Shown here: one piece after another, positions 18,171 through 19,374 of the stretch
Position numbering within the stretch: the stretch's first letter is position 1
How the letters are laid out: every line of letters starts with the position of its first letter
Source of the DNA: Caldicellulosiruptor changbaiensis
Lineage (GTDB): Bacteria; Bacillota; Thermoanaerobacteria; Caldicellulosiruptorales; Caldicellulosiruptoraceae
DNA length: 64,000 nucleotides
Direction: 5' to 3'
Assembly: GCF_003999255.1 (NCBI RefSeq)
Contig: NZ_CP034791.1
Coordinates: 2,830,501-2,894,500 of the forward strand
Made by a program: the position numbers and the translations under genes
The notes under the pieces: model-generated
Database searches by the model: none
Told to the model about the DNA's origin: nothing
What the model saw: the letters and a program-made list of their open reading frames with translations, nothing else

Positions 18171-18353
18171 AAAAATAAAAAGGCAGGGATTCTGTCCCCG
18201 CCTTCTTGATTTGTAAAGTGTTTCTTTTTCTATTTGTAAAATATTTAGCATATCCCAGTTGCCATCTGGCAAGCAGGATATGCCTGGAGCCTTTCAACTC
18301 CCTACTTCTGGAAGGTACTTGGCTCCTTTTTTAATTGATATTGATATGCTTCC
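18171..18353 (-). ncRNA. Candidate ~180-nt structured RNA of unknown family
   Basis: A consensus sigma-A promoter (18360-18388) points leftward into a run of strong hairpins. Hairpin A is GGAGCC...GGCTCC (18326-18321 with 18291-18286), with an inner CUUCC/GGGAG stem. Hairpin B is GGCATATCC...GGATATGC (18284-18248), with an inner TTGCC/GGCAA stem. An intrinsic terminator follows (AAGGCGGGG...CCCTGCCTT plus TTTTATTTTT, 18204-18171). No ORF fits. A GCATATC near the predicted 5' end could compete for one arm of hairpin B. I compared it from memory with common riboswitches and 6S RNA and found no match. Confidence 0.55.
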
Positions 18354-18369
18354 ACTATTATTATAAAAT
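18341..18369 (+). promoter_or_regulatory. Candidate promoter for the DUF3800 gene, overlapping the RNA promoter
   Basis: TTGATA (18341-18346), 17 bases, TAAAAT (18364-18369) points toward the gene at 18414. It overlaps the -10 of the divergent RNA promoter, so the two transcription units probably exclude each other at this spot. Confidence 0.45.
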
Positions 18370-18388
18370 ATAGTTGCTCCTTTGTCAA
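18360..18388 (-). promoter_or_regulatory. Perfect sigma-A promoter for the structured RNA
   Basis: On the minus strand TTGACA (18388-18383) is followed by exactly 17 bases and TATAAT (18365-18360), a full consensus match. The expected transcription start is near 18353. Both hexamers are exact, which is rare in this window. Confidence 0.75.
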
Positions 18389-18413: not shown

Positions 18414-19177
18414 TTGACATCATGTAAAGTTAAAATTTTTCTTGATGAAAGTGGTATAGTTAGAGAACAAAAACTTGGAATTATGGGCGCACTATTAATT
18501 CCTGAAAAAGTTTATAATAGCAGAAAATTTAAAGAATTAATGGATAAATTTAAAATAAACAACATTACTTTTCATTGGAATGAATTATCAATACATAATC
18601 AAGACAAGTATTTCGACTTATTAAGTAGTTTAACCCCTTTTTATAAGTTTATACATGCAAATTTTTTGTTGTATCATTATCAAAATTTCAGAAACATTAA
18701 TGATAATGAATTCAAACAGATGATTTACTCAAAATTTCCTGAAAGAGTAATATATGGCCTTTGCGAGATAATATTTCTTTTTCAAATATAGTAGCAGATA
18801 TAGAAATAGAACACTCTAGCAATTACGAAAAAATAGAATTAGACAAATTCATTCATCAACAGTTAAACGCACACAGCATCTACAGAGGTGAGCCTTTCAG
18901 AATAGAAAGTTGCACACTTATCCACAAACAATGTTCTTTTGGCTTACAGATTACAGACTGTCTCATTGGAGTTCTGAGAGATATATTTTTACTACTGAAT
19001 AAAGAATCAAAAAGAAGTAAAGAAAAGTTAGAATTTATTTACGATTTATTCAAGAATATCAACAAATTCCAGAGCTTTTTAGAATCTCTGACTATATTCG
19101 AATGGAAAAACTCTAGTAAGTTACATTCGGTTGATATTAAAAAGTATATACGCTTCTTTCTTTCTAATGAACTATAA
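18414..19177 (+). pseudogene. DUF3800-domain protein, frameshifted
   Basis: TTG at 18414 (GGGAGG upstream) opens VKIFLDESG, the acidic start motif of DUF3800, then FHWNELS. The frame stops at 18791, but the protein continues in another frame from about 18760: IVADIEIEHSSNYEKIE, FGLQITDCLIGVLRDIF, to 19177. One -1 shift near 18755-18770 restores a ~250-residue protein of normal DUF3800 length. No classic slippery heptamer is visible, so I read it as a mutation. DUF3800 proteins have an RNase H-like fold and often lie near mobile or defence genes; the function is unknown. Confidence 0.72.
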
Positions 19178-19200: not shown

Positions 19201-19275
19201 TGGTGACCCCGAGGGGATTCGAACCCCTGTTACAGGCGTGAAAGGCCTGTGTCTTAACCACTTGACCACGGGGCC
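19201..19275 (-). tRNA. tRNA-Glu (anticodon TTC)
   Basis: The cloverleaf is complete over 75 nt. Acceptor GGCCCCG pairs with CGGGGTC, the anticodon loop is CTTTCAC, the T arm is AGGGG-TTCGAAT-CCCCT, and the 3' CCA is encoded. Confidence 0.95.
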
Positions 19276-19298: not shown

Positions 19299-19374
19299 TG
19301 GTGAGCCATCCGCGACTCGAACGCGGGACACCCAGCTTAAAAGGCTGGTGCTCTGCCTACTGAGCTAATGGCCC
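19299..19374 (-). tRNA. tRNA-Lys (anticodon TTT)
   Basis: The 76-nt cloverleaf has acceptor GGGCCAT/ATGGCTC, D arm TAGCTCAGTAGGCAGAGCA, anticodon loop CTTTTAA within CCAGC/GCTGG, a T loop with TTCGAGT, and encoded CCA. It lies 23 bases upstream of tRNA-Glu and is probably cotranscribed with it. Confidence 0.95.

Follow-up and report, generated by a model that had tools for sequence, protein, structure and literature searches.

The window, a 64-kb stretch of DNA from Caldicellulosiruptor changbaiensis, carries on its minus strand a promoter that reads into two strong hairpins and a terminator, next to a gene of the DUF3800 family, and this arrangement leads us to ask what the RNA is and what it has to do with its neighbour. 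The answer proposed here is that it is probably the RNA component of a ribonucleoprotein module built around DUF3800, and that in this genome it has been left without its partner.

The RNA locus and its neighbour

The exact TTGACA-17-TATAAT at 18388-18360 is the only exact match to this consensus in the window, where 0.10 would be expected by chance (table 1). Folding of 18353-18171 on the minus strand gives a minimum free energy of -60.3 kcal/mol with a z-score of -6.0, and none of 200 shuffled sequences was equally stable. There is no convincing ORF over the RNA on its own strand, the sole one being 57 aa long with a TTG start, and beyond the terminator lies a convergent SpoIIM gene. The Rfam covariance models, those of 6S RNA and tRNA included, returned nothing at the gathering score, and a permissive search up to E = 10 gave chance matches only, none of them convincing. 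The region 18177-18388 of the minus strand is a predicted free-standing RNA gene with its own promoter and terminator. In these respects the original prediction stands: it had described a perfect sigma-A promoter, two strong hairpins with an intrinsic terminator, the lack of an ORF and of a known RNA family, the layout of a free-standing small RNA, and a divergent DUF3800 gene whose candidate promoter overlaps the locus, and it had named a match to tRNA or 6S RNA as what would speak against it. It had overlooked that the DUF3800 neighbour explains the RNA, and also the frameshift in that gene and the position of the hairpins directly behind tRNA-Glu in congeneric genomes.

Table 1. Features of the RNA locus and the adjoining genes (positions in the window).
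Feature	Position	Strand	Remarks
Sigma-A promoter TTGACA-17-TATAAT	18360-18388	-	12/12 consensus matches
Predicted small RNA	18177-18353	-	start placed 7 nt past the -10 box
Hairpin A	18286-18326	-	6-bp lower stem, AGUA/UGAAA loop-E-like internal loop, 5-bp apical stem
Hairpin B	18247-18284	-	11-bp lower stem, C.C 1x1 mismatch, 5-bp apical stem, 4-nt loop
Intrinsic terminator (stem)	18177-18207	-	3' of both hairpins
Candidate DUF3800 promoters	18335-18369	+	back to back, overlapping the RNA promoter
DUF3800 gene, frameshifted near 18760	18414-19177	+	ORFs 18414-18791 and 18761-19177, in different frames
tRNA-Glu(ttc)	19204-19275	-	beside the 3' end of the DUF3800 gene
tRNA-Lys(ttt)	19302-19374	-	pair with tRNA-Glu

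The DUF3800 family model PF12686 is passed by the joined two-frame reading alone (26.5 bits against a cut-off of 21), and both ORFs fail the gathering score when scored singly. The frameshift may be that of a real pseudogene or a sequencing error. Because no intact DUF3800 gene was detected in the source genome, the RNA is regarded as an orphan. An early stop, at 71 aa, is also present in a homologue from Paenibacillus planticolens (L104).

Conservation and decay within the genus

The conservation in related genomes that the original prediction had pointed to as a check was found: by BLAST, the hairpins are intact in 8 of the 12 genomes of the genus, the window's own genome among the eight, and in the other seven the matches begin at hairpin A and never cover the promoter. 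When the eight RNAs were made into a covariance model, it detected one copy per genome, and beyond the genus it gave weak matches only (E 0.13-0.8 per genome); an exact-sequence scan of the genome contigs with hairpin B produced no match. Pairing is kept in 214 of 216 stem cells of the genus alignment, two pairs have changed on both sides, and extensions of the loops can still pair. Such changes, which had been expected of a real RNA, lend modest but positive support to the predicted structure.

Two further observations concern the hairpins themselves. Within a given genome, hairpins A and B tend to carry loops of the same type, AGAU or GCAU (mixed in G008), which could reflect linked haplotypes, conversion or loop-loop contact. 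The best covariance match outside the genus, in G065, turned out to be the left end of a TnpB-type element and was set aside as a chance resemblance; the element is present in at least five copies (L058, L062, L063, L064, L065), and its left-end hairpin, which is like hairpin A (CCUUCC...GGGAGAUGAA), reaches 22 bits at best; the likeness is probably fortuitous, but the element is multicopy.

Beside the eight intact RNAs, the DUF3800 gene is broken in two genomes and gone in six. The window and G001 share the order tRNA-Glu, antisense DUF3800, promoter and RNA, and the orthologous DUF3800 gene of G001 is seemingly cut by a TnpB-type (IS200/IS605-like) element (L008, 1020-1330; L084). In G006 the gene has been lost and the RNA promoter retained, while in five genomes (G005, G007, G008, G010 and G011) both are lost, and there the hairpins start 9-11 nt past the CCA of tRNA-Glu; the 5' segment of the RNA is missing entirely from these tRNA-linked copies. 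At the orthologous tRNA-Lys-tRNA-Glu site the hairpins are degenerate in G002 and G004, and G003 and G009 have none. The terminator of the window is replaced by an unrelated one in G001, G005, G007 and G010.

From this series the linkage of the hairpins to tRNA-Glu looks secondary, having arisen because DUF3800 and the promoter were lost. The five genomes with hairpins immediately behind the tRNA could also be taken to mean that the hairpins serve the tRNA-Lys-tRNA-Glu transcript as a 3' trailer or a stabiliser. Their place there recalls rtT RNA, which is non-coding and follows a tRNA gene directly in the E. coli tyrT operon, but no Rfam match was obtained and the linkage of the present RNA appears to be derived. 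Moreover, separate terminators follow the hairpins, the window and G001 have DUF3800 and a new promoter between the tRNA and the RNA, G003 and G009 manage without hairpins, and in most other genera the architecture lies away from tRNA genes. A role in the tRNA transcript is improbable.

The orphan riboswitch of the original prediction, or more generally a cis-regulatory leader, is suggested by promoter, structured RNA and terminator in series. This reading is not supported, because no sense gene lies before or behind the terminator, the 5' segment that would do the switching is unconserved and the hairpins persist in genomes that lack the promoter; we consider it very unlikely indeed. The two alternative folds, in which GCATATC near the 5' end was proposed to pair with hairpin B, are not supported either, as that segment is the unconserved one that is absent from the tRNA-linked copies. 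We also tried and rejected the idea that the RNA controls DUF3800 in antisense at the start of the mRNA: it shows no preference for its own start (-16.9) over mismatched ones (-16.7).

Whether the RNA is anything other than a leftover in this genus deserves separate attention. On the one hand, the DUF3800 gene is defective or missing in all eight genomes that keep the RNA, and the degenerate or absent hairpins of the remaining ones would fit a decaying relic, without present function, of a module that is dead in the genus. On the other hand, the stems still pair, the promoter in the window is still perfect, and between two groups of the genus the hairpins are 87% identical where the next 90 nt align at just 55%. 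This difference argues for some continuing constraint on the hairpins, although strain-to-strain exchange could also explain it. A mere relic is a possibility to be kept in mind, but a rather doubtful one.

A divergent two-hairpin RNA beside one DUF3800 subfamily

The neighbour accounts for the RNA, because a divergent two-hairpin RNA is a general companion of this DUF3800 subfamily. L072 and L073, the closest homologues of the protein in the phylum at 42% and 36%, respectively, each have a divergent sigma-A promoter reading into two hairpins, which show no evident sequence similarity to the window RNA; the RNA region of L073 is identical to that of L106. A profile search recovered 24 chromosomal homologues of the subfamily, in Bacillota hosts that include Paenibacillus, Anoxybacillus, Planococcus, Sporosarcina, Clostridium and Desulfoscipio. 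A divergent promoter (shuffle p <= 0.05) is present at 20 of these 24 loci, the divergent stretch has a mean z-score of -3.7 against -0.34 in control pieces, and at most of the loci two tandem hairpins are followed by a T-run. Most plasmid and viral-contig copies have the same unit, and one carrier is a 7-kb mobilizable plasmid; a search of phage records gave no match. Among all the loci, L118, L122 and L131 are weak examples of the unit. Divergent structure of this kind was absent (z -0.9 to 0.6) at four DUF3800 loci outside the subfamily, taken from the class or the genus, so the link to the RNA looks specific to one subfamily, as far as this small control set goes.

In two Paenibacillus genomes (L100 and L101, 3765-4410) the DUF3800 gene is convergent with tmRNA and ends about 260-280 nt from the tmRNA 3' end, an arrangement comparable to tRNA-Glu beside the gene end in the window. 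The two situations together suggest that the DUF3800 gene may insert next to tRNA or tmRNA genes.

What the hairpins have in common across loci is shape and not sequence: a lower stem, a 1x1 pyrimidine mismatch and a short apical stem. Hairpins with a 1x1 mismatch were found at 27 of 35 loci compared with 111 of 345 control pieces, counts that overstate the number of independent events, because the loci are not phylogenetically independent and some of the 35 are near-identical. In 36 of 39 cases it is two pyrimidines that face each other in the mismatch (54 of 137 in controls). Likeness is greater between the hairpins of one locus than across loci (13.0 and 7.7, respectively; p = 3e-7), and the pair in the window, with a likeness of only 6.9, is below the usual. 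Its mismatches are C.C and C.U, not U.C, the C.U of hairpin A being C.A or U.A elsewhere, and its AGUA hairpin comes first, not second. Hairpin B is almost identical in shape to the second hairpin of L072 (C.C mismatch, 5 apical and 12 lower pairs), and its shape recurs in L106. The AGUA/GAA loop-E motif was rejected as a universal signature; because it is present at just 6 of 27 loci (16 of 420 control pieces), it marks a subset.

RNA motifs associated with DUF3800 were reportedly described by Weinberg and colleagues in 2017 (Rfam DUF3800-I, -VIII, -IX and others), and what they share with the present RNA is a structured small RNA gene adjoining a DUF3800 gene, often with its own terminator. 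None of the Rfam models DUF3800-I to -XI scored above the gathering threshold for the window RNA or its 24 chromosomal relatives, whose divergent units gave no Rfam match of any kind (0 of 24). DUF3800-I lies on the gene's own strand and is branched, and DUF3800-VIII is a single convergent hairpin downstream of the gene, whereas the RNA described here is divergent and has two hairpins. It is a new class, divergent in arrangement, within a known kind, that of DUF3800-linked RNAs, the motifs beyond -I and -VIII being compared by Rfam scores alone.

The protein partner and the proposed module

In the alignment of the subfamily, DESG and several more acidic residues are invariant. An AlphaFold2 model of the L101 homologue has a pLDDT of 91, and while Foldseek alone found no match in the PDB at E <= 0.001, structural alignment of its candidates ranks RNase HII and RNase H2 at the top, with Z 10-11.3 across some 165 residues (Z 11.3 over 164 residues for RNase HII 1eke); Argonaute PIWI domains come next. 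The predicted fold is RNase HII-like, that of an RNase H-like nuclease. The model agrees with an earlier report that DUF3800 has an RNase H fold, which also mentions a link of DUF3800 to putative ncRNAs (PMC10910872). PADLOC and NCBIfam gave no match for the subfamily protein.

Type III toxin-antitoxin RNAs (ToxI, CptI and TenpI) are pseudoknot repeats encoded in the same operon as a ToxN-like protein. Like the RNA considered here, they are short, repeated and structured, adjoin a nuclease-like gene and occur on plasmids, which raises the question of whether the hairpins neutralise a toxic DUF3800 nuclease in type III style, the toxin being lost first and the RNA persisting. The two near-copies of a hairpin at each locus, the strong separate promoter of the RNA, its carriage on plasmids (the 7-kb one included) and the earlier decay of the protein would all suit such an antitoxin. 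However, the present RNA consists of hairpins with a putative RNase HII-like partner, and its promoter is divergent, so that the repeats do not lie upstream of the toxin in one transcript; no type III family was matched in Rfam, the protein has no PADLOC counterpart, and its toxicity is putative. An antitoxin in the strict sense is conceivable, if somewhat unlikely.

The reading that we prefer, a DUF3800 ribonucleoprotein module, would comprise a protein of this subfamily and a divergent, terminated RNA with a strong promoter of its own that overlaps the one of the gene. Produced in excess, this RNA would consist of two hairpins in tandem, in which a 1x1 pyrimidine mismatch usually separates the lower from the apical stem. 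The protein most likely binds these hairpins, and perhaps cuts them, and would recognise them at the mismatch. It could be a toxin kept in check by the RNA, a nuclease working with the RNA or a processing enzyme, and the module may act as an accessory ribonucleoprotein or as an RNA-neutralised nuclease cassette. Plasmid carriage and protein-first decay incline us mildly towards the latter. In the source genome, the frameshift in the protein gene would have left the RNA an orphan, and in sister species the RNA, without a promoter but still partly conserved, would be carried along by the tRNA-Lys-tRNA-Glu unit. Because it is kept in genomes without an adjacent DUF3800, the RNA may also do something independent, or nothing.

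More tentatively, the module may represent an undescribed ribonucleoprotein found throughout the phylum, in which an RNase HII-like DUF3800 protein and a divergent two-hairpin RNA with pyrimidine mismatches would form a cassette, either an RNA-neutralised nuclease or a defence that uses RNA, with plasmids, prophages and chromosomes as its carriers; the tRNA operon of one genus would have captured the RNA once the protein had gone. DUF3800 proteins occur widely but are uncharacterised, and no mechanism has been available for their tie to structured RNAs. The recurrent minimal RNA, two short hairpins, usually with one mismatch each, under their own promoter, is small enough for reconstitution in the tube, and the use of RNA by DUF3800 is therefore directly testable. 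The decay series in the genus, in turn, would capture a protein-RNA module in the course of shedding its protein first.
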